A DNA stretch of 64,000 nt, taken from positions 13,306,984 to 13,370,983 of the forward strand of contig BTRK01000005.1 of assembly GCA_036245805.1 (NCBI GenBank), in the 5' to 3' direction. The notes under the pieces were generated by a model. It did not search any database, had not been told where the DNA came from, and saw only the letters and a list, made by a program, of their open reading frames with translations. The position numbers were made by a program, and so were the translations under genes. This DNA is from Pristionchus mayeri. Its lineage: Eukaryota; Nematoda; Chromadorea; Rhabditida; Neodiplogasteridae. Below are positions 9,050 through 50,690 of the stretch, piece by piece (position 1 is the stretch's first letter; the number at the start of each line of letters is the position of its first letter).

Positions 9050-12000
9050 ACTACTGATTAGTGATATTAGTTATTGCCATGAGTGATGGTATTGAGTTTT
9101 GAACATTGCAATTGTGGTAACAAAAAGTTGCTGCAATTGCAACATTTCGAATTTTAATTCTCTACGATACTCGGGAAACGGTGCATTACCATGCATGAGA
9201 ATCCATCCAATATGAATCGCATAGAGCAGGCTGTCTGAAGCATCGACGAATTGGAGTGTGGCGAAACCTGGGGTAATATTTCGAGAAACTCAAGAGAAAT
9301 TACTAACCAAGACATGTGGTCATGTGGACGAGTACGAGCACGCCGCATTGAACAGAGAGCTGGAGTTTATTCATTAACAATGTGATGTTTGACGAAAATG
9401 ATGCAATTGCCCCTCATCAACATATTTTTGATTTTAACGATTACTCCTCCTTGAACCGAAAGCTAAAATAGCCCGAAAAAAGTTATCGTAGATTAGATAT
9501 ATTTTTTGGGAGCTAATGTGTGCATAAAAGTTCCATTTTTAAATGTAAAAAAACAACAGAACAATACCATCAGTGCAGCTCGAGAAACCGTGTCTTGTGC
9601 CATTTCGAATGCTAACTGAAATGTTTTTATTTTTTTTCCGTTTTGGCCTACATTTCTTTGCAAAATAGTGCGTCAATTACCTGTTTCTTCTTTGCGACCA
9701 TACTGCAAATCATAATCAGATATAACAGGGAAGAGAGTAGTGGGAATACAACGTTATTCACGGCTAATAAATAATTGGTGTACTGCAAAGATGAGCATTT
9801 TTTAAGCACAACTTTTCGGTGTAGTCGTTGATCTCTTCAATCCATTCACTCTCTCGACCGGGGACATTTCCCAACTTTTCTCAACAACAGTCCAGTCAGA
9901 TCCCTACATGAAAACGGGTCTCCCGGGCGTTCCCGGATGTCCCCAGTGTCCCCCCGCCATTTTGCTGCTTGGGCAGAGAAAGAACTAACTCAGATTTTTG
10001 GTTTTCAGATTCAGGAGGTCCTTCCCGATCGATTGGCATATAATTCATCAATACCTATATATAAAGCGCAGGTTCCGTCCGTGTGTTCGGATTGCGAAAT
10101 AGGGTGGGGAGGGATGGGTGACCTTAGAAGGGCATCGGTCCACTACCGTATACCAATCAATAATTAGCATTTGGACAACTACAGTATACCAATCGATAAT
10201 TAGCCATGGGTCACCTCTTATTCCGTGGGTCAGATTTATGATTTTGACCTTTGATCTTTGAATTACCGTATACCAATCAATAATTAGCCATGGGTCATCT
10301 CTTATTCCGTGGGTCAGATTTATGATTTTGACCTTTGATCTTTGAATTACCGTATACCAATCAATAATTAGCATTGGGTCAACTACCGTATACCAATCGA
10401 TAATTAGCCATGGGTCATCTCTTATTCCGTGGGTCAGATTTATGATTTTGACCTTTGATCTTTGAATTACCGTATACCAATCAATAATTAGCATTGGGTC
10501 AACTACCGTATGCCAATCGATAATTAGCTTATGGGTCAACTGTTATTCCGTGGGTTAGATTTATGATTTTACACTTTGATCTGCGAATTACCGTATACCA
10601 ATCAATAATTAGCATTAGGTCAACTACCGTATACCAATCGATAATTAGCCATGGGTCACCTCATATTCCGTGGGTCAGATTTATGATTTTGACCTTTGAT
10701 CTTTGAATTACCGTATGCCAATCAATAATTAGCATTGGGTCAACTACCGTATACCAATCGATAATTAGCCATGGGTCATCTCTTATTCCGTGGGTCAGAT
10801 TTATGATTTTGACCTTTGATCTTTGAATTACCGTATGCCAATCGATAATTAGCAGTGGGTCAACTACCGTATACCAATCGATAATTAGCCATGGGTCAAA
10901 GCATCTCGAATGTTCCGGAAAGTTCGAAAATATTCCAAAGCTTCTAGAATGTTCCCTAAAGTTCGAAAATGTTCCAAAGTTTCTAGAATGTTCCAGAAAG
11001 TTCGAAAATGTTCCAAAGCTTCTAGGATGTTCCAGGAAGTTCGAAAATGTTCGAAAACTTCTAGAATGTTCCAGAAAGTTCGAAAATGTTCCAAAGTTTC
11101 TAGAATGTTCCAGATAGTTCGAAAATGTTCCAAAGCTTCTAGAATGTTCCAGAACATTCGAAAATGTTCCAAAGCTTCTAGAATGTTCCAGAACATTCGA
11201 AAATGTTCCAAAGTTTCTAGAATGTTCCCGAAAGTTAGAAAATGTTCCAAAGCTTCTAGAATGTTCCAGAAAGTTCGAAAATGTTCCAAAGCTTCTAGGA
11301 TGTTCCAGGAAGTTCGAAAATGTTCGAAAACTTCTAGAATGTTCCAGAAAGTTCGAAAATGTTCCAAAGCTTCTAGGATGTTCCAGGAAGTTCGAAAATG
11401 TTCGAAAACTTCTAGAATGTTCCAGAAAGTTCGAAAATGTTCCAAAGTTTCTAGAATGTTCCCGAAAGTTCGAAAATGTTCCAAAGTTTCTAGAATGTTC
11501 CAGATAGTTCGAAAATGTTCCAAAGCTTCTAGAATGTTCCAGAACATTCGAAAATGTTCCAAAGCTTCTAGAATGTTCCAGAACATTTGAAAATGTTCCA
11601 AAGCTTCTAGAATGTTCCAGAAAGTTCGAAAATGTTCCAAAGCTTCTAGAATGTTCCAGAAAGTTCGAAAATGTTCGAAAACTTCTAGAATGTTCCAGAA
11701 AGTTCGAAAATGTTCCAAAGCTTCTAGAATGTTCCAGAAAGTTCGAAAATGTTCCAAAGCTTCTAGAATGTTCCAGAAAGTTCGAAAATGTTCCAAAGCT
11801 TCTAGGATGTTCCAGGAAGTTCGAAAATGTTCGAAAACTTCTAGAATGTTCCAGAAAGTTCGAAAATGTTCCAAAGTTTCTAGAATGTTCCCGAAAGTTC
11901 GAAAATGTTCGAAAACTTCTAGAATGTTCCAGAAAGTTCGAAAATGTTCCAAAGTTTCTAGAATGTTCCAGAAAGTTAGAAAATGTTCCAAAGCTTCTAG

Positions 12001-15000
12001 AATGTTCCAGAACATTTGAAAATGTTCCAAAGCTTCTAGAATGTTCCGGAAAGTTCGAAAATGTTCCAAACCTTCTAGAATGTTCCAGAAAGTTCGAAAA
12101 TGTTCCAAAGCTTCTAGAATGTTCCAGAAAGTTCGAAAATGTTCCAAAGCTTCTAGAATGTTCCAGAAAGTTCGAAAATGTTCCAAAGCTTCTAGAATGT
12201 TCCAGAAAGTTCGAAAATGTTCCAAAGCTTCTAGAATGTTCCAGAAAGTTCGAAAATGTTCCAAACCTTCTAGAATGTTCCAGAAAGTTCGAAAATGTTC
12301 CAAAGCTTCTAGAATGTTCCAGAAAGTTCGAAAATGTTCCAAAGTTTCTAGAATGTTCCAGATAGTTCGAAAATGTTCCAAAGCTTCTAGAATGTTCCAG
12401 AACATTCGAAAATGTTCCAAAGCTTCTAGAATGTTCCAGAACATTTGAAAATGTTCCAAAGCTTCTAGAATGTTCCAGAAAGTTCGAAAATGTTCCAAAG
12501 CTTCTAGAATGTTCCAGAAAGTTCGAAAATGTTCGAAAACTTCTAGAATGTTCCAGAAAGTTCGAAAATGTTCCAAAGCTTCTAGAATGTTCCAGAAAGT
12601 TCGAAAATGTTCCAAAGCTTCTAGAATGTTCCGGAAAGTTCGAAAATGTTCCAAAGCTTCTAGAATGTTCCAGATAGTTCGAAAATGTTCCAAAGCTTCT
12701 AGAATGTTCCAGAACATTCGAAAATGTTCCAAAGCTTCTAGAATGTTCCAGAACATTCGAAAATGTTCCAAAGTTTCTAGAATGTTCCCGAAAGTTAGAA
12801 AATGTTCCAAAGCTTCTAGAATGTTCCAGAAAGTTCGAAAATGTTCCAAAGCTTCTAGGATGTTCCAGGAAGTTCGAAAATGTTCGAAAACTTCTAGAAT
12901 GTTCCAGAAAGTTCGAAAATGTTCCAAAGCTTCTAGGATGTTCCAGGAAGTTCGAAAATGTTCGAAAACTTCTAGAATGTTCCAGAAAGTTCGAAAATGT
13001 TCCAAAGTTTCTAGAATGTTCCCGAAAGTTCGAAAATGTTCCAAAGTTTCTAGAATGTTCCAGATAGTTCGAAAATGTTCCAAAGCTTCTAGAATGTTCC
13101 AGAACATTCGAAAATGTTCCAAAGCTTCTAGAATGTTCCAGAACATTTGAAAATGTTCCAAAGCTTCTAGAATGTTCCAGAAAGTTCGAAAATGTTCCAA
13201 AGCTTCTAGAATGTTCCAGAAAGTTCGAAAATGTTCGAAAACTTCTAGAATGTTCCAGAAAGTTCGAAAATGTTCCAAAGCTTCTAGAATGTTCCAGAAA
13301 GTTCGAAAATGTTCCAAAGCTTCTAGAATGTTCCAGAAAGTTCGAAAATGTTCCAAAGCTTCTAGGATGTTCCAGGAAGTTCGAAAATGTTCGAAAACTT
13401 CTAGAATGTTCCAGAAAGTTCGAAAATGTTCCAAAGTTTCTAGAATGTTCCCGAAAGTTCGAAAATGTTCGAAAACTTCTAGAATGTTCCAGAAAGTTCG
13501 AAAATGTTCCAAAGTTTCTAGAATGTTCCAGAAAGTTAGAAAATGTTCCAAAGCTTCTAGAATGTTCCAGAACATTTGAAAATGTTCCAAAGCTTCTAGA
13601 ATGTTCCGGAAAGTTCGAAAATGTTCCAAACCTTCTAGAATGTTCCAGAAAGTTCGAAAATGTTCCAAAGCTTCTAGAATGTTCCAGAAAGTTCGAAAAT
13701 GTTCCAAAGCTTCTAGAATGTTCCAGAAAGTTCGAAAATGTTCCAAAGCTTCTAGAATGTTCCAGAAAGTTCGAAAATGTTCCAAAGCTTCTAGAATGTT
13801 CCAGAAAGTTCGAAAATGTTCCAAACCTTCTAGAATGTTCCAGAAAGTTCGAAAATGTTCCAAAGCTTCTAGAATGTTCCAGAAAGTTCGAAAATGTTCC
13901 AAAGTTTCTAGAATGTTCCAGATAGTTCGAAAATGTTCCAAAGCTTCTAGAATGTTCCAGAACATTCGAAAATGTTCCAAAGCTTCTAGAATGTTCCAGA
14001 ACATTTGAAAATGTTCCAAAGCTTCTAGAATGTTCCAGAAAGTTCGAAAATGTTCCAAAGCTTCTAGAATGTTCCAGAAAGTTCGAAAATGTTCGAAAAC
14101 TTCTAGAATGTTCCAGAAAGTTCGAAAATGTTCCAAAGCTTCTAGAATGTTCCAGAAAGTTCGAAAATGTTCCAAAGCTTCTAGAATGTTCCGGAAAGTT
14201 CGAAAATGTTCCAAAGCTTCTAGAATGTTCCAGATAGTTCGAAAATGTTCCAAAGCTTCTAGAATGTTCCAGAACATTCGAAAATGTTCCAAAGCTTCTA
14301 GAATGTTCCAGAACATTTGAAAATGTTCCAAAGCTTCTAGAATGTTCCAGAAAGTTCGAAAATGTTCCAAACCTTCTAGAATGTTCCAGAAAGTTCGAAA
14401 ATGTTCCAAAGCTTCTAGAATGTTCCAGAAAGTTCGAAAATGTTCCAAAGCTTCTAGAATGTTCCAGAAAGTTCGAAAATGTTCGAAAACTTCTAGAATG
14501 TTCCAGAAAGTTCGAAAATGTTCCAAACCTTCTAGAATGTTCCAGAAAGTTCGAAAATGTTCCAAAGCTTCTAGAATGTTCCAGAAAGTTCGAAAATGTT
14601 CCAAAGCTTCTAGAATGTTCCAGAAAGTTCGAAAATGTTCCAAAGCTTCTACAGTCCTGTTGTGTCCCACCGTGAACATGCGTCACCCGGAGTAACCCGG
14701 GGTGACTCGGGGTGACCCCGGGTGACCCATGGTGACCCACGGCCGACTCCTGTCTCGGAGAGTGAATTTTATGAATCGATAGTATGATATTCGGGTTCAG
14801 CACTTCCTGGCCGTTCGAACCATATATATTTCATAATTTATTTCTAAGAATAAAAAGACTCGATTTTATTGGCAAAAGAGGCTATCAAAGGTCTGACCCA
14901 CAGAAGCCGCATATTGGACCAGCAGGTAATTAATCTTTTTCCCGGTTTTGCATTCAAACTTTCCCCGGTTTTCATACAACTGATACATTTCATGGTTTCC

Positions 15001-18000
15001 CATTATTTGCTTGGTTAAAACTATTCCACTAAAACATTGTAAAGAAACTAAAAATAATATAAACAAAACGAAGCAAGGGAAACCGTGAAATGTATCAGTT
15101 GGCTAAAAAACGGTGAACATTTGAATGCAAAACCGGGAAGAATATTAATTACCTGCTGGTCCAATATGCGGCTTCTGTGGGTCAGACCTTTGATAGCCTC
15201 TTTTGCCAATAAAATCGAGTGTTTTTATTCTTAGAAATAAAATATGAAATATATATGGTTCGAACGGCCAGGAAGTGCTGAACCCGAATATCATACTCTC
15301 GATTCGTAAAATTCACTCTCCGAGTCAGGAGTCGGCCATGGGTCACCATGGGTCACCCGGGGTCACCCCGAGTCACCCCGGGTTACTCCGGGTGACGCAT
15401 GTTCACGGTGGAACACAACAGGACTGTAGAATGTTCCAGAAAGTTCGAAAATGTTCCAAAGCTTCTAGGATGTTCCAGGAAGTTCGAAAATGTTCGAAAA
15501 CTTCTAGAATGTTCCAGAAAGTTCGAAAATGTTCCAAAGTTTCTAGAATGTTCCAGAAAGTTAGAAAATGTTCCAAAGCTTCTAGAATGTTCCAGAAAGT
15601 TCGAAAATATTCCAAAGCTTCTAGGATGTTCCAGGAAGTTCGAAAATGTTCGAAAACTTCTAGAATGTTCCAGGAAGTTCGAAAATGTTCCAAAGCTTCT
15701 AGGATGTTCCAGGAAGTTCGAAAATGTTCGAAAACTTCTAGAATGTTCCAGAAAGTTCGAAAATGTTCCAAAGTTTCTAGAATATTCCCGAAAGTTCGAA
15801 AATGTTCCAAAGTTTCTAGAATGTTCCAGATAGTTCGAAAATGTTCCAAAGCTTCTAGAATGTTCCAGAACATTCGAAAATGTTCCAAAGCTTCTAGAAT
15901 GTTCCAGAACATTTGAAAATGTTCCAAAGCTTCTAGAATGTTCCAGAAAGTTCGAAAATGTTCCAAAGCTTCTACAGTCCTGTTGTGTCCCACCGTGAAC
16001 ATGCGTCACCCGGAGTAACCCGGGGTGACTCGGGGTGACCCCGGGTGACCCATGGTGACCCACGGCCGACTCCTGTCTCGGAGAGTGAATTTTATGAATC
16101 GATAGTATGATATTCGGGTTCAGCACTTCCTGGCCGTTCGAACCATATATATTTCATAATTTATTTCTAAGAATAAAAAGACTCGATTTTATTGGCAAAA
16201 GAGGCTATCAAAGGTCTGACCCACAGAAGCCGCATATTGGACCAGCAGGTAATTAATCTTTTTCCCGGTTTTGCATTCAAACTTTCCCCGGTTTTCATAC
16301 AACTGATACATTTCATGGTTTCCCATTATTTGCTTGGTTAAAACTATTCCACTAAAACATTGTAAAGAAACTAAAAATAATATAAACAAAACGAAGCAAG
16401 GGAAACCGTGAAATGTATCAGTTGGCTAAAAAACGGTGAACATTTGAATGCAAAACCGGGAAGAATATTAATTACCTGCTGGTCCAATATGCGGCTTCTG
16501 TGGGTCAGACCTTTGATAGCCTCTTTTGCCAATAAAATCGAGTGTTTTTATTCTTAGAAATAAAATATGAAATATATATGGTTCGAACGGCCAGGAAGTG
16601 CTGAACCCGAATATCATACTCTCGATTCGTAAAATTCACTCTCCGAGTCAGGAGTCGGCCATGGGTCACCATGGGTCACCCGGGGTCACCCCGAGTCACC
16701 CCGGGTTACTCCGGGTGACGCATGTTCACGGTGGAACACAACAGGACTGTAGAATGTTCCAGAAAGTTCGAAAATGTTCCAAAGCTTCTAGGATGTTCCA
16801 GGAAGTTCGAAAATGTTCGAAAACTTCTAGAATGTTCCAGAAAGTTCGAAAATGTTCCAAAGTTTCTAGAATGTTCCAGAAAGTTAGAAAATGTTCCAAA
16901 GCTTCTAGAATGTTCCAGAAAGTTCGAAAATATTCCAAAGCTTCTAGGATGTTCCAGGAAGTTCGAAAATGTTCGAAAACTTCTAGAATGTTCCAGGAAG
17001 TTCGAAAATGTTCCAAAGCTTCTAGGATGTTCCAGGAAGTTCGAAAATGTTCGAAAACTTCTAGAATGTTCCAGAAAGTTCGAAAATGTTCCAAAGTTTC
17101 TAGAATATTCCCGAAAGTTCGAAAATGTTCCAAAGCTTCTAGAATGTTCCAGAACATTTGAAAATGTTCCAAAGCTTCTAGAATGTTCCAGAAAGTTCGA
17201 AAATGTTCCAAAGCTTCTAGAATGTTCCAGAAAGTTCGAAAATGTTCGAAAACTTCTAGAATGTTCCAGAAAGTTCGAAAATGTTCCAAAGCTTCTAGAA
17301 TGTTCCAGAAAGTTCGAAAATGTTCCAAAGCTTCTAGAATGTTCCGGAAAGTTCGAAAATGTTCCAAAGCTTCTAGAATGTTCCAGAAAGTTCGAAAATG
17401 TTCCAAACCTTCTAGAATGTTCCAGAAAGTTCGAAAATGTTCCAAAGCTTCTAGAATGTTCCAGAAAGTTCGAAAATGTTCCAAAGCTTCTAGGATGTTC
17501 CAGGAAGTTCGAAAATGTTCGAAAACTTCTAGAATGTTCCAGAAAGTTCGAAAATGTTCCAAAGCTTCTAGGATGTTCCAGGAAGTTCGAAAATGTTCGA
17601 AAACTTCTAGAATGTTCCAGAAAGTTCGAAAATGTTCCAAAGTTTCTAGAATGTTCCCGAAAGTTCGAAAATGTTCCAAAGTTTCTAGAATGTTCCAGAT
17701 AGTTCGAAAATGTTCCAAAGCTTCTAGAATGTTCCAGAACATTCGAAAATGTTCCAAAGCTTCTAGAATGTTCCAGAACATTTGAAAATGTTCCAAAGCT
17801 TCTAGAATGTTCCAGAAAGTTCGAAAATGTTCCAAACCTTCTAGAATGTTCCAGAAAGTTCGAAAATGTTCCAAAGCTTCTAGAATGTTCCAGAAAGTTC
17901 GAAAATGTTCCAAAGCTTCTAGAATGTTCCAGAATGTTCGAAAATGTTCCAAAGCTTCTAGAATGTTCCAGAAAGTTCGAAAATGTTCCAAAGCTTCTAG

Positions 18001-21000
18001 AATGTTCCAGAAAGTTCGAAAATGTTCCAAACCTTCTAGAATGTTCCAGAAAGTTCGAAAATGTTCCAAAGCTTCTAGAATGTTCCAGAAAGTTCGAAAA
18101 TGTTCCAAAGTTTCTAGAATGTTCCAGAAAGTTAGAAAATGTTCCAAAGCTTCTAGAATGTTCCAGAAAGTTCGAAAATGTTCCAAAGCTTCTAGGATGT
18201 TCCAGGAAGTTCGAAAATGTTCGAAAACTTCTAGAATGTTCCAGGAAGTTCGAAAATGTTCGAAAACTTCTAGAATGTTCCAGAAAGTTCGAAAATCTTC
18301 CAAAGTTTCTAGAATGTTCCAGAAAGTTAGAAAATGTTCCAAAGCTTCTAGAATGTTCCAGAAAGTTCGAAAATGTTCCAAAGTTTCTAGAATGTTCCAG
18401 ATAGTTCGAAAATGTTCCAAAGCTTCTAGAATGTTCCAGAACATTCGAAAATGTTCCAAAGCTTCTAGAATGTTCCAGAACATTTGAAAATGTTCCAAAG
18501 CTTCTAGAATGTTCCAGAAAGTTCGAAAATGTTCCAAAGCTTCTAGAATGTTTCAGAAAGTTCGAAAATGTTCGAAAACTTCTAGAATGTTCCAGAAAGT
18601 TCGAAAATGTTCCAAAGCTTCTAGAATGTTCCAGAAAGTTCGAAAATGTTCCAAAGCTTCTAGAATGTTCCGGAAAGTTCGAAAATGTTCCAAAGCTTCT
18701 AGAATGTTCCAGAAAGTTCGAAAATGTTCCAAACCTTCTAGAATGTTCCAGAAAGTTCGAAAATGTTCCAAAGCTTCTAGAATGTTCCAGAAAGTTCGAA
18801 AATGTTCCAAAGCTTCTAGGATGTTCCAGGAAGTTCGAAAATGTTCGAAAACTTCTAGAATGTTCCAGAAAGTTCGAAAATGTTCCAAAGCTTCTAGGAT
18901 GTTCCAGGAAGTTCGAAAATGTTCGAAAACTTCTAGAATGTTCCAGAAAGTTCGAAAATGTTCCAAAGTTTCTAGAATGTTCCCGAAAGTTCGAAAATGT
19001 TCCAAAGTTTCTAGAATGTTCCAGATAGTTCGAAAATGTTCCAAAGCTTCTAGAATGTTCCAGAACATTCGAAAATGTTCCAAAGCTTCTAGAATGTTCC
19101 AGAACATTTGAAAATGTTCCAAAGCTTCTAGAATGTTCCAGAAAGTTCGAAAATGTTCCAAACCTTCTAGAATGTTCCAGAAAGTTCGAAAATGTTCCAA
19201 AGCTTCTAGAATGTTCCAGAAAGTTCGAAAATGTTCCAAAGCTTCTAGAATGTTCCAGAAAGTTCGAAAATGTTCCAAAGCTTCTAGAATGTTCCAGAAA
19301 GTTCGAAAATGTTCCAAAGCTTCTAGAATGTTCCAGAAAGTTCGAAAATGTTCCAAACCTTCTAGAATGTTCCAGAAAGTTCGAAAATGTTCCAAAGCTT
19401 CTAGAATGTTCCAGAAAGTTCGAAAATGTTCCAAAGTTTCTAGAATGTTCCAGAAAGTTAGAAAATGTTCCAAAGCTTCTAGAATGTTCCAGAAAGTTCG
19501 AAAATGTTCCAAAGCTTCTAGGATGTTCCAGGAAGTTCGAAAATGTTCGAAAACTTCTAGAATGTTCCAGGAAGTTCGAAAATGTTCGAAAACTTCTAGA
19601 ATGTTCCAGAAAGTTCGAAAATCTTCCAAAGTTTCTAGAATGTTCCAGAAAGTTAGAAAATGTTCCAAAGCTTCTAGAATGTTCCAGAAAGTTCGAAAAT
19701 GTTCAAAAGCTTCTAGAATGTTCCAGATAGTTCGAAAATGTTCCAAAGCTTCTAGAATGTTCCAGAACATTCGAAAATGTTCCAAAGCTTCTAGAATGTT
19801 CCAGAACATTTGAAAATGTTCCAAAGCTTCTAGAATGTTCCAGAAAGTTCGAAAATGTTCCAAAGCTTCTAGAATGTTCCAGAAAGTTCGAAAATGTTCG
19901 AAAACTTCTAGAATGTTCCAGAAAGTTCGAAAATGTTCCAAAGCTTCTAGAATGTTCCAGAAAGTTCGAAAATGTTCCAAAGCTTCTAGAATGTTCCGGA
20001 AAGTTCGAAAATGTTCCAAAGCTTCTAGAATGTTCCAGAAAGTTCGAAAATGTTCCAAACCTTCTAGAATGTTCCAGAAAGTTCGAAAATGTTCCAAAGC
20101 TTCTAGAATGTTCCAGAAAGTTCGAAAATGTTCCAAAGCTTCTAGGATGTTCCAGGAAGTTCGAAAATGTTCGAAAACTTCTAGAATGTTCCAGAAAGTT
20201 CGAAAATGTTCCAAAGCTTCTAGGATGTTCCAGGAAGTTCGAAAATGTTCGAAAACTTCTAGAATGTTCCAGAAAGTTCGAAAATGTTCCAAAGTTTCTA
20301 GAATGTTCCCGAAAGTTCGAAAATGTTCCAAAGTTTCTAGAATGTTCCAGATAGTTCGAAAATGTTCCAAAGCTTCTAGAATGTTCCAGAACATTCGAAA
20401 ATGTTCCAAAGCTTCTAGAATGTTCCAGAACATTTGAAAATGTTCCAAAGCTTCTAGAATGTTCCAGAAAGTTCGAAAATGTTCCAAACCTTCTAGAATG
20501 TTCCAGAAAGTTCGAAAATGTTCCAAAGCTTCTAGAATGTTCCAGAAAGTTCGAAAATGTTCCAAAGCTTCTAGAATGTTCCAGAAAGTTCGAAAATGTT
20601 CCAAAGCTTCTAGAATGTTCCAGAAAGTTCGAAAATGTTCCAAAGCTTCTAGAATGTTCCAGAAAGTTCGAAAATGTTCCAAACCTTCTAGAATGTTCCA
20701 GAAAGTTCGAAAATGTTCCAAAGCTTCTAGAATGTTCCAGAAAGTTCGAAAATGTTCCAAAGTTTCTAGAATGTTCCAGAAAGTTAGAAAATGTTCCAAA
20801 GCTTCTAGAATGTTCCAGAAAGTTCGAAAATGTTCCAAAGCTTCTAGGATGTTCCAGGAAGTTCGAAAATGTTCGAAAACTTCTAGAATGTTCCAGGAAG
20901 TTCGAAAATGTTCGAAAACTTCTAGAATGTTCCAGAAAGTTCGAAAATCTTCCAAAGTTTCTAGAATGTTCCAGAAAGTTAGAAAATGTTCCAAAGCTTC

Positions 21001-24000
21001 TAGAATGTTCCAGAAAGTTCGAAAATGTTCAAAAGCTTCTAGAGTGTTAAAGAAAATTCGAAAACGAGAGGGAGAGTAGGAAAGAGGGCGGGGAAGGAGA
21101 CAGGGAGAGATGGAGAGTGGGAGAGAGAGGGAGCGAGGGAAAGAGAGGGAGCGAGGGAAAGAGAGGGAGAGAGAGAGCGAGGGAAAGAGATGGAGCGAGG
21201 GAAAGAGAGGGAGCGAGGGAAAGAGAGGGAGCGAGGGAAAGAGAGGGAACGAGGGAAAGAGAGGGAGAGAGAGAGCGAGGGAAAGAGAGGGAGCGAGGGA
21301 AAGAGAGGGAGAGAGAGCGAGGGAACGAGATGGAGCGAGGGAAAGAGAGGGAGCGAGGGAAAGAGAGGGAGCGAGGGAAAGAGAGGGAGCGAGGGAAAGA
21401 GAGGGAGAGAGAGAGCGAGGGAAAGAGATGGAGCGAGGGAAAGAGAGGGAGCGAGGGAAAGAGAGGGAGCGAGGGAAAGAGAGGGAGAGAGAGAGCGAGG
21501 GAAAGAGAGGGAGAGTGAGAGAGAGAGAGAGGGGGAGAGAGAGAGAGAGAGAGGGAAAGAGAGGTAGAGAGAGGGAAAGAGAGGGAGGGAGAGAGAGAGA
21601 GAGGGGGGGAGAGAGAGAGAGAAAGAGAAGGAGAGAGAGAGAGGGAAAGATAAGGAGAGAGAGGGAGAGGGACAGAGAGGGAAAGAGAAGGAGGGAGAGA
21701 AAGGGAAAGATAGGGAGAAGGAGAGAGAGAGGGAGAGGGAGAGGGAGAGAATGAGAGAAATAGGGAGAAAGCGCGAAGGAGAGGTAGGGAGAGGGAGGAA
21801 GATATGTAAAGTAAGGCAGTATTAGACTTTGCATCCGAAAGAAATTGCACGAGGACTTAGAACAAATCCCGGAACACGCCAGTCGATTGCGCGCGCCGTG
21901 GCGCGCGCGATCGGCTGGTAAATTCATAAATTTGCGATAAATCGTACTTTAATTTTGAAAATCGAGGATAATTAATCGGAAACGAAGAACTACGGTAGTT
22001 AATTTGCCCATTCACCGGTCAGGCTCTGGATCCGTCTACAGGGTGCGTAAAAAGTATGGTGACAAACATTACGCATAATTTATCGCGTGCTTTCAATCAC
22101 TATGAATCCCGGTTAGGCCTCAATTTACCTGAGCATAATTGCTCCAAGATATTAATCTTAGTTTCCCACAAAGGAGCTCTGCCACTTAGAGTAGCGAACA
22201 TTTCCATTTGAAATTCATGTGACCTTGGCCCGCTACTCATTTTTCGCATAAATGATAATTCCAAAAATTTAGATAAGCATTACCTTACTATTTTAACTTT
22301 ACTATAGAGAGAAACCATTCCACATTAGAATGTTCGTGCGTAGCTAGCACTCTATTATAAGGGAATGGAGAACTATCAACTTAACGAACTCATACTTTGA
22401 TGATGACACAAAAACTTGAAAAGTGGCATTTTCAGTTTTCATATTCACCATGCTAATTTCTTGAAATAAACATGTATCGCGTATTACGTATTACGGTCGA
22501 ATTATGAATTTTGGTAGTATCAAATTGAATGAAAACAAGGGCCTAATGTCTGTATCAAAAATTTCCAAATATAGCTGATGTGGCGACTTCGGAGATATTC
22601 GAACAATCTGCAGATCCATGTTCCCATTCCCGAAGTACACTGAATGCACAATTACGCTCCTGAGAGGTTGAGTATCATATACAATATAATGCGAATATCA
22701 TAACTGACAACACGGGCACCCGGGGAGTCCCGTTTTTATGTAGGGATCTGACTGGACTGTAGACTACAGCTGTGTCAACTTCGGAGTAGCCCTCTTGCCT
22801 CGTATTCATTGTTGAATCCAATATCCAGAGCAAATAGATGAAACTCCGAATTCAACATCACAATTGGAGTGAATGCGACAAGAAAGAAGGCGTACGATGA
22901 TGGGATTGCCATCAAATACCATGTGCGAGCACCCTGCAACGCTCAACATTTTCCTAATGTTTCACCGTTTAATCGTAAAAAAATGTAAATGAGCGTAACG
23001 AAGGCAACCCCAAGGCCTACACTGTCATACGTTTCTCATGATTCGCTTCACTTGAAAATTACCTTGTTAATGGGCAGAAGTGGTCGGATGTCAAGCAATT
23101 CGACCACGCGATTTACAGCGATCATCAGACACGAGCAGCAAGAGGCGTAGAAACAACCTGCAAATTAAGAACCCGTTCTGAGTAGTATTTGGTGATCTGA
23201 TTGATGGGAACAGAGCATCAGCAGCTCTATGAGGAAAGACTCTCTTGAACATTTTACAACCATTATGTTAGAATAGTGAAGATCGCTTACTAACGGTAAT
23301 TCCATTGGTGAGAAAGTTTCGTTTCGGATGGTGGCAGTACATTTCGCCCCAGCTGAAGAGTAGGTTTCGACTAAATACAGGAACTTCATTTATCAGGTTG
23401 TCAGAAAAGTAATTGTAGATTTTCGAATTTTCGATTCCGAGAAACCCCGTCCTTTGTTTCCTCCCGTCTATCATATTGATGTGTATACTAGTTGAGTCCT
23501 TGGATAGTCTTTCCATCGCACATTGGTTCAAGCCTTCCCGTTTGGTAATGAGGATACAGGTTGACGTCAAAAATATATCAATGCAGAGTTGCTCTGATAT
23601 CATTTTGGCCTAGCAATCCAGGGAGAACTAAGATATGGCAAATGTTATGTCATTTACGAAAAGTACGACCTACGCACATCACAATACAACATATCACTCT
23701 GATCTGTAACGAAAGGCCTGTCGGAAAAGTCAGTCATTAGTGACATTGCCCCTTACGGAAAGTCCTCATAAATGCTTGAACTGTGCCTGTACCCGTAACA
23801 ATAATCTTATGGAAACCAAATGCAGTGACCCTAAAAGCACCTTTCATGCTCATCTTAAAATTGTATTTATATGTGTTTGCAATACTTCTATCAAAACATG
23901 CAGCTTTCACTACCCAGAAGCTCAAATTTGAACGTCGAAATTCGACTATATGACAACTTCCTGATTCCAGCATTGGTGAAAAATCCTAACTTTTGTGGTT

Positions 24001-30047: not shown

Positions 30048-30896
30048 TTAAGAAAAAAAAATATAAAATGTTTTTTTTCGAACGAGCAGTTCAAGCAAGG
30101 CGATACAGGAATCAATCAATTTCAATCGCAATTCAAAAGCTGTATTTGATCATAAGGATAAGAAGACATGCATGCTACATCTGAAAGTGAGCATCTATCG
30201 TACGTGATGGAAATATAGGAACGTATACCGTGAAGTTCATAAAATATCACCTTTCTTGGATTATGGTGAATTTACATTTTTGTGACTTTTGATTTTTTTC
30301 ATTCTTTTTTTCATATACGTTTACATAAAACGGATGGGTTTTTTTCCATGAAAAGTGGCTAAATAATATTTAAAAGAGAAAATAAAAATTGAATAAAATT
30401 GCGAAAATTGCACTACCGTAATCGCAGTTTCGTCAGTTATTGGGCATCCGCGGCCGCGAGCGGACGTCCGCGCCATGAATTTTGCAATTTCTCGCTCCTA
30501 CTTTTCTCCTTATTTTCCCTCGAATTTCCTGTTATATTGTTCAATTAAGTTTAATTTGAATTAGTTTCGCACTCTCATCTGCCCAGTTTCGTCGAGTAAA
30601 GTAGATTTGCCACTAGTTTTAGGCAGTTTACGCTCGTTTTACGAATTTTAGGCAGTTGACCTTATTTCATAATCGGGCTCGTCGTATTTCGACAACATTT
30701 TTGCTTGTCTTTCGCGTTACTTTACTTAATTTAATTAAAAACTTGCATGTATATTGTTTCGCACTCACGCTTCCCCGCTTCACCCGCGTAAATTAGCACA
30801 AATCGCTAATATTAGGCCGCCTCAACTTCGAATTTGAACTGTTATCATTCTTTTTTGTTTAGTACTTTTGCTTTGCAGGTCGCGAGTATCGGAGTC

Positions 30897-31142
30897 ATGT
30901 CGAATCAAACTCCGTACATCGGCAGCAAGATCAGTCTCATTTCCAAGCTCGATATTCGCTACGAGGGAATTCTTTACTCTTCGAGCACCACGGAGTCCAC
31001 CATCGCACTCGTGAAAGGTTAATATAGAATATTTTATTTAATTATTCGAGCGTTTTAGTGCGTTGTCTGGGCACTGAGGACCGACCGGTATCCAACCCTG
31101 TCCCTACTCGTGATGATGTGTACGAACACATTATCTTCAAGG
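30897..31142 (+). pseudogene. car-1: Captured car-1/LSM14 LSm-domain fragment, left arm
   Basis: Exon 1 (ATG at 30897, preceded by a TTGCAG acceptor at 30878) reads [20 protein letters not shown] and STIALVK to a GT donor at 31017. Exon 2 (31059-31142) continues in phase with VRCLGTEDRPVSNPVPTRDD and VYEHIIFK. This is the N-terminal LSm domain of the Lsm14/RAP55/CAR-1 family, RNA-binding proteins of P-bodies and germ granules. The FDF and RGG parts are absent. The sequence is free of stops in both exons. Confidence 0.85.
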
Positions 31143-31269
31143 CCAGTTTCCTCGAGTAAAGTAGCATCACCTCTACTTTTAAGCAGTTTACCCTCATTTT
31201 ATCATAAGATGTTCCTAAAATTTAATTTTGAATTGTTATCGTTCTTTTTTGCTGAGTACTTTTGATTTG

Positions 31270-32827
31270 CAGAACCGAGAAAGTCGAGAAGGCTTGATCC
31301 GAGGCCGAAATTTCCTATGAAGTGGGAGGGGAAGCACCTGGACCAAGGAGCTCGCTGCCAGCAAGCTTGTAATATTTTATGTTCTTTGTTTATATTCCGG
31401 GAATAAATTCGACACAATTTTGCTCTGCAGCGCTCTGCTCTCCCCGACTTCGACCGCTACAAGCTGTTGCGCGCCAAGCAAGCCATAAACCGATTGATCA
31501 AGATGGAAAGCTCAAGGTATGATCTTATATTTTGGCTAATTGATTGGTCGGGACTTATCGCTACCACTGAAACCAGTTCCATATTTTTTGCTGCCCCGAG
31601 AGTCATCCGATAGGGATTAGACGCCAATTATCTCTCAGTCCTTTTACCTCTTTTTTGCTTCCAAAATGCCCGTATTAGTCGCAAAATATTCGAGTTAAAA
31701 ATGTGGTATTTTGTTCGACTCTGTATCGTGTTCTCGAACCCGGTTACCATTAGAGGATACTCAGGTTCCAAAAATATGTTGGCCATCCAGGACCCATCAA
31801 AGGCTGCTCTGGTTCCACAACGTGGTACCATGTCTCAAAATTGAGACGGACAAGTCATGGAACCCGGGTCCCGAGCAGTTCCACGTTAATGTCTTATTTT
31901 TCGAAAATGTATTGTCCTTTTTTAAAAAATAAGCAACTTTGCATGATTAAATATTTTATTAACAGGTTCTTCTCGATGGACCCGCTTACACAGTTCTCCG
32001 CAGCGTCCGTAACCTGAAGGACCTCCAGCAGACTAAGTTCAAGGTCGCCATTGGGCTCGAGGAGTGAACCGAAGCAGTCTCTCGTCGGTCAGTATTTGTA
32101 AATTTATTGATATTTTAAAATGTGGTATTTTGTAAGGCTATGTTACTGTTCTATGGCCCAATCCTCGGATCCGGGTAACCATGTTTTAAAAGTATTTCAT
32201 TTTGTCATCCAGATCCCATTAAATGTTAGCAAGGTCCCACAGCTTTTAAATTTAATATTTTATTAACAGGTTCTTCTCGATGGACCCGCTTCCGGAGTTC
32301 TCCGCAGCGTCCGTAGCCTGAAGGGGGGCTCTCCCGTCGGTCAGTATTTTTAAATTTATTATTATTTTAAAATATGCTATTCTGTTATGCTCATTCTATA
32401 TCCTGGCCCAATATTCGGATCCGGGTCCCGTCAGAGAGTACCCATGTTCTAAAATATTTTTGCTACCCCGAACCCATCAAATGCTACTAAGGATCCTACT
32501 GCCTGGTACCCGGATCCATTCACGGGCTACACGAATTAGAGGCTTGGGACCGGGATGTTGAAGCAGTCTTTCAATATTTGTTTATTTTTGTGAACTTGTA
32601 ATCAAATGATCCGTGTCACGAAGTTTTTCGTGGCCTGAGCTCGATGCTTGGTACCGGGACACTGTATCTAGCTCTTTCTATTAAAAAAGGATCGAGTATC
32701 TTGTCAATAATCTTTTTTTGTGAGCACAATAATACTTCTCCTTTCAGGAGTCAGCACCTTCGACAGCTACAAACTGATGCGCGCCAAGCAAGCCATAAAC
32801 CGATCGGTCAAGACGGAAATCGCCTAA
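31270..32827 (+). pseudogene. rpl-14: Captured, shuffled rpl-14 (eL14) exons, left arm
   Basis: Fragments of ribosomal protein eL14 in scrambled order. 31270-31376 holds TEKVEKA then, after frameshifts, WTKELAASKL. 31430-31517 reads LPDFDRYKLLRAKQAINRLI. 31967-32066 is an earlier exon, VLLDGPAYTVLRSVRNLKDL to a stop. 32270-32344 is a shortened copy of that exon. 32750-32827 is a second copy of the last exon (FDSYKLMRAKQAINRSVKTE, then stop). Most pieces keep the splice acceptor CAG. Exon order is 3'-5'-3', so a simple transcript cannot give eL14. Confidence 0.8.
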
Positions 32828-32937
32828 TTGTATTTATATCTGTGAGTTTTTCGTGGATAAAGATTTATCATTACCATGGTCTTATTTCAACAATGAAAAA
32901 ACAACAACAGTAAGGGGGTGAGTGGGAATCTGGGGAA

Positions 32938-36609: not shown

Positions 36610-36717
36610 CCCATTCTCCAGTGTTTCGTTTACAATTGTTTGTATTCGTTATTGAAATAAGACCATGATAATGATAAATCTTTATCCACGAAAAACTCAC
36701 AAATATAAATACAATTA

Positions 36718-38270
36718 GGCGATTTCCATCTTGACCAATCGGTTTCTGGCTTGCTTGGCGCGCATCAGTTTGTAGCTGTCGAAGGTGCTGACTCCTGAAA
36801 GGAAAAGTATTATTGTGCTCACAAAAACAGATTATTGACAAGATACTCGATCCTTTTTTAATAGAAAGAGCTAGATACAGTGTCCCGGTACCAAGCATCG
36901 AGCTCAGGCCACGAAAAACTTCGTGACACGGATCATTTGATTACAAGTTCACAAAAATACACAAATATTGAAAGACTGCTTTAACATCCCGGTCCCAAGC
37001 CTCTAATTCGTGTAGCCCGTGAATGGATCCGGGTACCAGGCAGTAGGATCCTTGGTAGCATTTGATGGGTTCGGGATAGCAAAAATATTTTAGAACATGG
37101 GTACTCTCTGACGGGACCCGGATCCGAATATTGGGCCAGGATATAGAAAGAGCATAACAGAATAGCATATTTTAAAATAATAATAAATTTAAAAATACTG
37201 ACCGACGGGAGAGCCCCCCTTCAGGCTACGGACGCTGCGGAGAACTCCGGAAGCGGGTCCATCGAGAAGAACCTGTTAATAAAATATTAAATTTAAAAGC
37301 TGTGGGACCTTGCTAACATTTAATGGGATCTGGATGACAAAATGAAATACTTTTAAAACATGGTTACCCGGATCCGAGGATTGGGCCATAGAACAGTAAC
37401 ATAGCCTTACAAAATACCACATTTTAAAATATCAATAAATTTACAAATACTGACCGACGAGAGACTGCTTCGGTTCACTCCTCGAGCCCAATGGCGACCT
37501 TGAACTTAGTCTGCTGGAGGTCCTTCAGGTTACGGACGCTGCGGAGAACTGTGTAAGCGGGTCCATCGAGAAGAACCTGTTAATAAAATATTTAATCATG
37601 CAAAGTTGCTTATTTTTTAAAAAAGGACAATACATTTTCGAAAAATAAGACATTAACGTGGAACTGCTCGGGACCCGGGTTCCATGACTTGTCCGTCTCA
37701 ATTTTGAGACATGGTACCACGTTGTGGAACCAGAGCAGCCTTTGATGGGTCCTGGATGGCCAACATATTTTTGGAACCTGAGTATCCTCTAATGGTAACC
37801 GGGTTCGAGAACACGATACAGAGTCGAACAAAATACCACATTTTTAACTCGAATATTTTGCGACTAATGCGGGCATTTTGGAAGCAAAAAAGAGGTAAAA
37901 GGACTGAGAGATAATTGGCGTCTAATCCCTATCGGATGACTCTCGGGGCAGCAAAAAATATGGAACTGGTTTCAGTGGTAGCGATAAGTCCCGACCAATC
38001 AATTAGCCAAAATATAAGATCATACCTTGAGCTTTCCATCTTGATCAATCGGTTTATGGCTTGCTTGGCGCGCAACAGCTTGTAGCGGTCGAAGTCGGGG
38101 AGAGCAGAGCGCTGCAGAGCAAAATTGTGTCGAATTTATTCCCGGAATATAAACAAAGAACATAAAATATTACAAGCTTGCTGGCAGCGAGCTCCTTGGT
38201 CCAGGTGCTTCCCCTCCCACTTCATAGGAAATTTCGGCCTCGGATCAAGCCTTCTCGACTTTCTCGGTTC
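36718..38270 (-). pseudogene. rpl-14: Captured, shuffled rpl-14 exons, right arm
   Basis: Mirror of the left-arm rpl-14 fragments in the same scrambled order, read on the minus strand from 38270 inward. The last exon copy (36718-36794) differs slightly from its left counterpart (ARNRLVKMEIA in place of INRSVKTEIA). Confidence 0.8.
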
Positions 38271-38399
38271 TGCAAATCAAAAGTACTCAGCAAAAAAGAA
38301 CGATAACAATTCAAAATTAAATTTTAGGAACATCTTATGATAAAATGAGGGTAAACTGCTTAAAAGTAGAGGTGATGCTACTTTACTCGAGGAAACTGG

Positions 38400-38645
38400 C
38401 CTTGAAGATAATGTGTTCGTACACATCATCACGAGTAGGGACAGGGTTGGATACCGGTCGGTCCTCAGTGCCCAGACAACGCACTAAAACGCTCGAATAA
38501 TTAAATAAAATATTCTATATTAACCTTTCACGAGTGCGATGGTGGACTCCGTGGTGCTCGAAGAGTAAAGAATTCCCTCGTAGCGAATATCGAGCTTGGA
38601 AATGAGACTGATCTTGCTGCCGATGTACGGAGTTTGATTCGACAT
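38400..38645 (-). pseudogene. car-1: Captured car-1/LSM14 fragment, right arm
   Basis: Mirror of 30897-31142; ATG at 38645 on the minus strand. The translation is the same LSm-domain start ([20 protein letters not shown]) and VRCLGTEDRPVSNP. Confidence 0.85.
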
Positions 38646-39507
38646 GACTCCGATACTCGCGACCTGCAAAGCAAAAGTACTAAACAAAAAAGAATGATAA
38701 CAGTTCAAATTCGAAGTTGAGGCGGCCTAATATTAGCGATTTGTGCTAATTTACGCGGGTGAAGCGGGGAAGCGTGAGTGCGAAACAATATACATGCAAG
38801 TTTTTAATTAAATTAAGTAAAGTAACGCGAAAGACAAGCAAAAATGTTGTCGAAATACGACGAGCCCGATTATGAAATAAGGTCAACTGCCTAAAATTCG
38901 TAAAACGAGCGTAAACTGCCTAAAACTAGTGGCAAATCTACTTTACTCGACGAAACTGGGCAGATGAGAGTGCGAAACTAATTCAAATTAAACTTAATTG
39001 AACAATATAACAGGAAATTCGAGGGAAAATAAGGAGAAAAGTAGGAGCGAGAAATTGCAAAATTCATGGCGCGGACGTCCGCTCGCGGCCGCGGATGCCC
39101 AATAACTGACGAAACTGCGATTACGGTAGTGCAATTTTCGCAATTTTATTCAATTTTTATTTTCTCTTTTAAATATTATTTAGCCACTTTTCATGGAAAA
39201 AAACCCATCCGTTTTATGTAAACGTATATGAAAAAAAGAATGAAAAAAATCAAAAGTCACAAAAATGTAAATTCACCATAATCCAAGAAAGGTGATATTT
39301 TATGAACTTCACGGTATACGTTCCTATATTTCCATCACGTACGATACATCATGCACCCATCTGAGGAATTCACCATTCCCGAGTTCAGTGAGCAGGCAAA
39401 GCAGAAAATGTCGACCGTGCTAGAAGCAATGCGAAGGTTCAGTTATTCATTTGTCTGTAGATATGATTTCACGAAGCTTCTTGTTAGAATTCTTGTTAAG
39501 ACAAGGA

Positions 39508-50159: not shown

Positions 50160-50690
50160 ATCTCGGCTCCCAGGCATCACCCAGAGCTCGGACCTTGACC
50201 ATTAGAACGCCCCTGGCGAGTACTTTCAAAATTTGGTATTACGTCATCATTATGCAACATGATGCAATAATCGTTTTTTGGCCATAAATCGCTTCAAAGC
50301 AGTCTCTCAGACCTCGGGCCTTGACCATTCGACTCCCCAGAGTGAGCTCTTTCAAAATTTGGTATTGCATCATCATTATGCAACATGATGCAATACTCGC
50401 TTTTTGGCCATAAATCACTTCAAAGTGGTCGCCCAGACCCAGGACCTTGTCCATTCGACTCCCTAGAGTGAGCTCTTTCAAAATTTGGTATTACGTCATC
50501 ATTATGCAACATGATGCAATAATCGTTTTTTGGCCATAAATCGCTTCAAAGCAGTCTCTCAGACCTCGGGCCTTGACCATTCGACTCCCCAGAGTGAGCT
50601 CTTTCAAAATTTGGTATTGCATCATCATTATGCAACATGATGCAATAATCGCTTTTTGGCCATAAATCACTTCAAAGTGGTCGGCCTCAC
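50160..50690. repeat. 126-bp tandem repeat
   Basis: Four units spaced exactly 126 bp, with TTTGGTATT at 50232, 50358, 50484 and 50610. Each contains GCAACATGATGCAATA, TTTTTTGGCCATAAATC and CCTTGACCATTCGACTCCC. The flank (49960-50160) has related ATTGCATCATCATTACGTCA sequence and a short TTTG microsatellite. Confidence 0.85.

Follow-up and report, generated by a model that had tools for sequence, protein, structure and literature searches.

A satellite of tandem heat shock elements and its likely place inside a non-autonomous Helitron of Pristionchus mayeri

Why should one locus carry some 220 tandem copies of what looks like a binding site of the heat shock factor HSF-1? The question is raised by a 64,000-nucleotide stretch of Pristionchus mayeri DNA (referred to here as the window), which contains a 39-bp satellite built of heat shock elements (HSEs), i.e. 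of alternating TTC and GAA pentamers. We find that the array is most likely an internal part of a non-autonomous Helitron, which the first-pass annotation of the stretch had overlooked. In our opinion the block is, with good probability, the HSE satellite of this Helitron, and it would go back to an HSF-1-driven transposase promoter that was amplified as a satellite. The analysis demonstrates the anatomy of the Helitron, its association with transposase genes, the genome-wide counts and the duplications.

The satellite and the Helitron around it

Positions 10897-21064 of the window form a tandem repeat with a period of 39 (Tandem Repeats Finder, TRF), and a scan with the 39-mer finds 220 units in it, just as the first-pass annotation had estimated. 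The alternation of pentamers in 5-bp register, also claimed there, is borne out: in strict register the block holds 197 runs of at least three alternating TTC/GAA pentamers. Fifty Markov shuffles of the block average 1.04 such runs, and 4 are found elsewhere in the window. The runs comprise five pentamers in 149 cases, four in 29 and three in 19, which gives 918 registered pentamers, so the earlier figure of more than a thousand was too high. Five pentamers in a row are indeed the commonest state, but since there are 149 such runs for 220 units, not every unit holds five as had been stated. By eye, the unit consists of four decamers, TTCTAGAATG TTCCAGAAAG TTCGAAAATG TTCCAAAGC, and it looks like a 40-bp run of eight pentamers that has lost one base and in which two GAA sites have decayed. 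The reading of the units as extended consensus HSEs is supported, and the genome encodes an HSF, represented by a single PF00447 match.

The satellite is divided into three segments on the forward strand, 10897-14651 (seen by TRF, register count and unit scan), 15427-15974 (by comparison of loci) and 16750-21064 (by TRF and unit scan). The interruptions are two identical copies of a 775-bp foldback element, at 14652-15426 and 15975-16749, i.e. at an offset of 1323 bp; the arms of the element are 90% complementary, its TA target is duplicated and its insertion site lies in TTCTAGAA. Further array segments are repeated at offsets of 1326, 1560 and 2652 bp with at least 396 of 400 bases identical. 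These repeats, at offsets of about 1.3-2.7 kb, indicate that the array grew through segment duplication, and part of this growth postdates the landing of the foldback element.

The Helitron as a whole measures 11,871 bp (10048-21918, forward strand), as defined by termini that are common to other copies: it starts with TCAATACC at 10048 and stops with GGCTGG at 21918, between a host A at 10047 and a host T at 21919. Its parts, all on the forward strand, are a 5' terminal region running from TCAATACCTATATATAAAGCGCAG to TCGGATTGCGAAATAGGG (10048-10140, displayed alongside 11 other loci), an F block of 84/120-bp tandem repeats with 13 F motifs (10144-10898, by TRF and the order of parts at other loci), the satellite, a GA-rich block (21066-21820, by TRF and comparison of loci) and a 3' terminal palindrome with the end CTGG (21879-21918, by comparison of termini; there are 116 exact 3' ends in the genome). 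Neither the F block nor the GA-rich block contains HSE runs.

The 5'-TC and 3'-CTRR termini typical of Helitrons are both present. A host A followed by TC is found at 10 of the 11 HSE-type 5' ends for which a flank is available (the exception is locus L001), and nine of the ten 3' ends have CTGG followed by T, the exception being L013, where this is not seen on the strand displayed. The window copy and other loci are thus flanked by A and T, as for an insertion between these two bases. The GC-rich 3' hairpin is represented by the 40-bp palindrome, which reaches the terminus itself; in most Helitrons the hairpin lies about 10 bp before the 3' terminus. No match to Rep or PIF1 helicase was found in the window copy, unlike in the coding copies described below. 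Two other identities were considered. Helentrons and HINEs are defined by insertion between two T residues, and this identity was set aside given the A and T flanks. A generic satellite or centromeric repeat was rejected because other copies show transposon ends and the order of parts.

Coding relatives and other copies in the genome

The Rep domain PF14214 has 81 matches genome-wide (79 over the cut-off), and at least 11 of these have a listed end of the element (5' or 3') at a distance of 2.8-5.8 kb. Two full-length coding copies were assembled from pairs of loci, L021+L062 (C1:4567740-4561214, 6,527 bp) and L017+L063 (C1:12561933-12552739, 9,195 bp), where C1 to C6 denote the six large contigs (39.7-57.3 Mb) of a genome of 290.8 Mb in all. 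Both contain the 5' end, F repeats, HSE units, open reading frames (ORFs) for Rep (PF14214) and PIF1 helicase, and the same 3' palindrome as the window copy, and they are 98.4-99.5% identical over the aligned stretches. PF05970 and PF21530 are above the cut-off in L055, L062 and L063, as is PF21530 in L056, and in L055 and L056 the helicase ORF stops 127 bp before the same 3' terminus; the combination of Rep and PIF1-like helicase that characterizes Helitrons is therefore present in the coding copies. Three further loci (L064, L065 and L066) repeat the 5' half of the coding copies. HSE units stand upstream of the Rep gene at five of six Rep-associated 5' ends, the sixth (L067) having been read too short. 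In addition, a separate five-pentamer HSE follows the array 95-96 bp before the candidate ATG, which was recognised by eye, in all five 5' regions that reach this point.

The order of parts was compared at 18 loci (the window, L001, L003, L004, L008 and L009-L021). F repeats precede the HSE array at 16 of them and the GA-rich block follows it at 13, while the 5' end was recognised at 12 and the 3' end at 10. The succession of F repeats, HSE array and 3' palindrome is seen again on each of the six large contigs, at the loci sampled there. L019, on the other hand, has 55 HSE units, yet over 9.9 kb it showed neither F repeats nor a GA block nor Helitron ends, so not every array was tied to such ends. 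The 5' terminal sequence CCTATATATAAAGCGCA has 575 exact occurrences in the genome; in the first 13.57 Mb of C1, the part for which the lists of 5' ends and of HSE cores are both complete, HSE-bearing copies account for 9 of the 27 exact 5' ends. Of 20 3' ends sampled on C2-C6, 13 are accompanied by HSE units at a distance of up to 2.3 kb and another 4 are GA-rich as far as they were read; the remaining 3 are without units, two of them being helicase-coding copies. A separate observation is a group of four Helitron 5' ends on one strand at C1:35719159-35721489, spaced by 695, 695 and 924 bp, which may be tandem insertions or concatemer-like.

The genome-wide search for the unit that the first-pass annotation had suggested gave 11,618 exact 18-bp cores (5,115 and 6,503 on the two strands). 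The perfect five-pentamer HSE pattern has 13,068 matches and its reversed control none, although matches on the two strands may overlap, so that the number of distinct sites is lower. One hundred of these matches were listed. They come from a single part of C1 (1.27-13.57 Mb) and hence are not a genome-wide sample: 96 were judged to be satellite units by their letters and place, two are accounted for by the promoter-proximal HSEs that the full-length coding copies carry, and the last two, which overlap at C1:5940684, are neither. Five perfect units in succession occur at 73 places, 25 of which fall into C5:26.036-26.078 Mb. Here (L070, L068, L069 and L071) a 5' end and F repeats are followed by an array that extends from about C5:26035550 to a run of N at 26078469, and two 2.5-kb samples of its interior consist of 98% units each. 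This array seems to span about 43 kb, i.e. about 1,100 units if unbroken, and the window array is probably not the largest in the genome.

Weighing the explanations

A Helitron with HSEs upstream of its transposase would offer a simpler reason for the presence of these elements, and one with a published parallel. Upon heat stress, HSF-1 would bind the HSE array and the proximal HSE of coding copies, and the bound factor would drive expression of the Rep-helicase transposase. The latter, if any coding copy is intact, could mobilise coding copies and deleted ones in trans. In the window copy the coding region is absent, whereas both ends and the array are retained, and the array was enlarged by the segment duplications described above. 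As a side effect every insertion could carry HSF-1 sites to its surroundings and might influence neighbouring genes.

The rival that survives best, even though we consider it improbable, is a neutral satellite whose resemblance to HSEs is incidental, with the repeat having a role in replication or none at all. Growth by segment duplication needs no selection, and other internal repeats, which have no HSE runs in the window copy, vary too (from 2 to 52 F motifs across the compared loci). What speaks against neutrality is that five pentamers stand in exact register, that the coding 5' regions have the separate promoter-proximal HSE, and that the HSE triplets are less divergent than their surroundings. 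For the last point 39 loci were scanned and 31 with at least two units were kept (476 units). The divergence from the consensus is 2.6% at the 15 triplet positions, 5.7% in the linkers, 6.7% in the sixth TTC and 5.2% in the rest, and triplets are below non-triplets at 26 of the 31 loci.

Several observations weigh against the HSF-1-driven promoter as the source of the satellite, and some of them concern this very comparison. The permutation of positions (20,000 permutations; P 0.0014, or 0.0046 for the first 23 positions only) counts related copies as separate loci and ignores base-specific mutation. When triplets are set against linkers they are lower at 21 of the 31 loci, higher at 8 and equal at 2, and within the window array 10-12% of the units differ at each of the triplet positions 6, 16 and 22. 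No empty insertion site was found among the loci examined. In the coding copies the proximal HSE sits after a TATA-like stretch (again read by eye), which makes the transcription start site uncertain. The PF14214 match of both full-length copies has one internal TAA, be it an intron or a break, and for this reason the copies are termed coding and not proven autonomous. Finally, there are tiny Helitrons with the same 5' end. Sixteen extra 5' ends were read over 2.8 kb, of which 13 had been chosen for the absence of a listed 18-bp core nearby and the other three lie beyond the complete list; none has an HSE or F array within this distance, and one has a single three-pentamer run. Mobility in trans therefore does not require HSEs. 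The ends are those of Helitrons: A stands before TC at 14 of the 16 (exceptions L024 and L034), and 14 of them share about 150 bp or more with others (about 50-80 bp in L026 and 40-60 bp in L034); in six that were inspected, CTAG or CTAA precedes T in every case and a GC hairpin is found in five.

We regard it as very unlikely that the arrays exist to titrate or concentrate HSF-1, i.e. that they are a sink or the seed of nuclear stress bodies. Human satellite III is likewise a large satellite with heat shock factor sites; unlike it, the array described here is transposon-borne and present at many loci. The 13,068 perfect matches and the C5 array of apparently some 43 kb would suit a sink, as would the cooperative behaviour of the C. 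elegans HSF-1 DNA-binding domain on multimeric HSEs (PMC9148306). Against this, the arrays are parts of transposons at loci on all six large contigs, and their length varies from 2 to perhaps 1,100 units, as in a passive satellite. Equally improbable is that the host keeps the array to enhance a neighbouring gene, for instance the LSM14-like one at 30.9 kb: heat-induced genes of C. elegans are enriched near Helitron HSEs (PMC6927752), but the LSM14-like exon lies past the 2.5 kb used in that study and inside an inverted duplication with nearly identical arms.

The host genome and the Helitrons of Caenorhabditis

The first-pass annotation had placed the satellite in a host intron. This is unsupported: among the 123 ORFs scanned with Pfam (out of 196 ORFs of at least 66 aa outside 10000-22000, a scan that short exons could escape), the only match was the LSM14 exon, which begins about 9 kb downstream of the Helitron, and no host gene spanning the array was found. 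A 2.7-kb inverted duplication (30193-32904 and 36636-39349, 99.3% identical) carries one LSM14-like exon per arm; the ORFs in its spacer look transposable-element-like by eye and have no Pfam matches. More inverted pairs, 91-98% identical and perhaps foldback elements, are located at 434-1660/6740-7964, 41690-42804/43005-44117, 57253-57867/58062-58690 and 26149-26734/26830-27418, and a 126-bp tandem repeat of about four copies (TRF) at 50182-50677.

The PF00447 match of the genome (C5:22637761-22637880) belongs to HSF-1-like exons, which we take to resemble those of C. elegans. A Helitron copy is found beside them in locus L023 (C5:22632900-22642800), at 1775-2330 of the reverse complement of the locus. 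The copy shows the 5' end, F repeats and three HSE runs (4, 5 and 5 pentamers); it is oppositely oriented and situated some 2.8 kb upstream of the first coding exon that was seen, though further upstream exons may exist. This neighbour was spotted after the fact. At a density of 575 exact 5' ends per 290.8 Mb, about 0.6% of genes should have one in the 3 kb upstream of them. As a native control, a three-pentamer HSE was seen in three of five HSP20 neighbourhoods, hand-picked from 36 HSP20 matches listed, as against about 0.7 expected from the window background; the other two neighbourhoods have none. One of the regions with HSP20 matches (L076, C3:45158417-45160449) has them head-to-head with one three-pentamer HSE, TTCTAGAACCTTC, in between. 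The genome also contains 465 exact copies of what we take to be the SL1 leader (reversed control 0), fourteen of them regularly spaced at about 1135 bp in C3:4589721-4604493. These leaders, like the HSF-1-like exons, mark the genome as that of a nematode.

It is natural to compare the present element with the Helitrons of Caenorhabditis. Schreiner 2019 reported HSF-1-dependent heat induction of Helitron1_CE (PMC6765114), and in C. elegans this element is bound by HSF-1 and heat-induced together with its Rep-helicase mRNA (PMC6765114, PMC6927752). According to Garrigues 2019 (PMC6927752), 61.4% of the C. elegans HSEs are within Helitrons, heat raises HSF-1 and RNA polymerase II levels, and the association of HSEs and Helitrons is found in 27 Caenorhabditis genomes, while no HSE clusters were found in the other animals with annotated Helitrons that were examined there. 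The Hac-HSE Helitrons (Helitron1_CE, Helitron2_CE, HelitronY1, Y1A and Y4; PMC6927752, PMC6765114) and the present element have in common dense HSE clusters inside the Helitron, a transposase promoter that contains HSEs (here upstream of Rep-helicase in five of six cases), the coexistence of coding and non-coding copies, and a large share of the HSEs of the genome within the element. Most likely the present element works in the same way. There are also differences in scale: the host genome has 290.8 Mb, as compared with 65-140 Mb in the Caenorhabditis species covered by PMC6457397 and 190 Mb in an inflated assembly, a size that speaks against Caenorhabditis as the host, and the array of apparently 43 kb compares with more than 100 HSEs in each of eight HelitronY4_CE copies (PMC6927752). 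Helitron-related satellites such as Cele_Fam_7_40 are approximate multiples of the decamer AGAANNTTCT (PMC4595182); the present unit is close to four decamers of TTCNNGAANN, and has 39 bp, where the name of the former suggests 40, a comparison at the level of the decamers. The main text of that paper does not contain the term heat shock. Among the papers listed by literature searches, as judged by titles and abstract openings, no report of HSE Helitrons outside Caenorhabditis was found.

In its A and T flanks and CTRR end the present element resembles canonical Helitrons, unlike Helentrons and HINE/DINE elements. HINE/DINE elements are likewise rolling-circle elements with satellite repeats. 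The same is true of the oyster Helentrons (PMC7492417).

The HSE Helitron system of Caenorhabditis is thus known; new are, probably, a different worm genus, an array with an apparent length of about 43 kb, and the copy near hsf-1. A more far-reaching idea, which we consider doubtful, is that heat-driven HSE Helitrons exist outside Caenorhabditis, that satellites of more than 40 kb with nearly all strong HSEs form HSF-1 nuclear hubs upon heat, and that the insertion upstream of hsf-1 forms a feedback loop. If our explanation is true, stress-wired Helitrons would extend beyond Caenorhabditis to a larger nematode genome. In a single genome, natural arrays whose size runs from 2 extended HSE units to perhaps 1,100 would provide a dose series for HSF-1 titration or concentration, and the system would allow one to ask whether the stress promoter of a transposon is itself the source of a satellite family.

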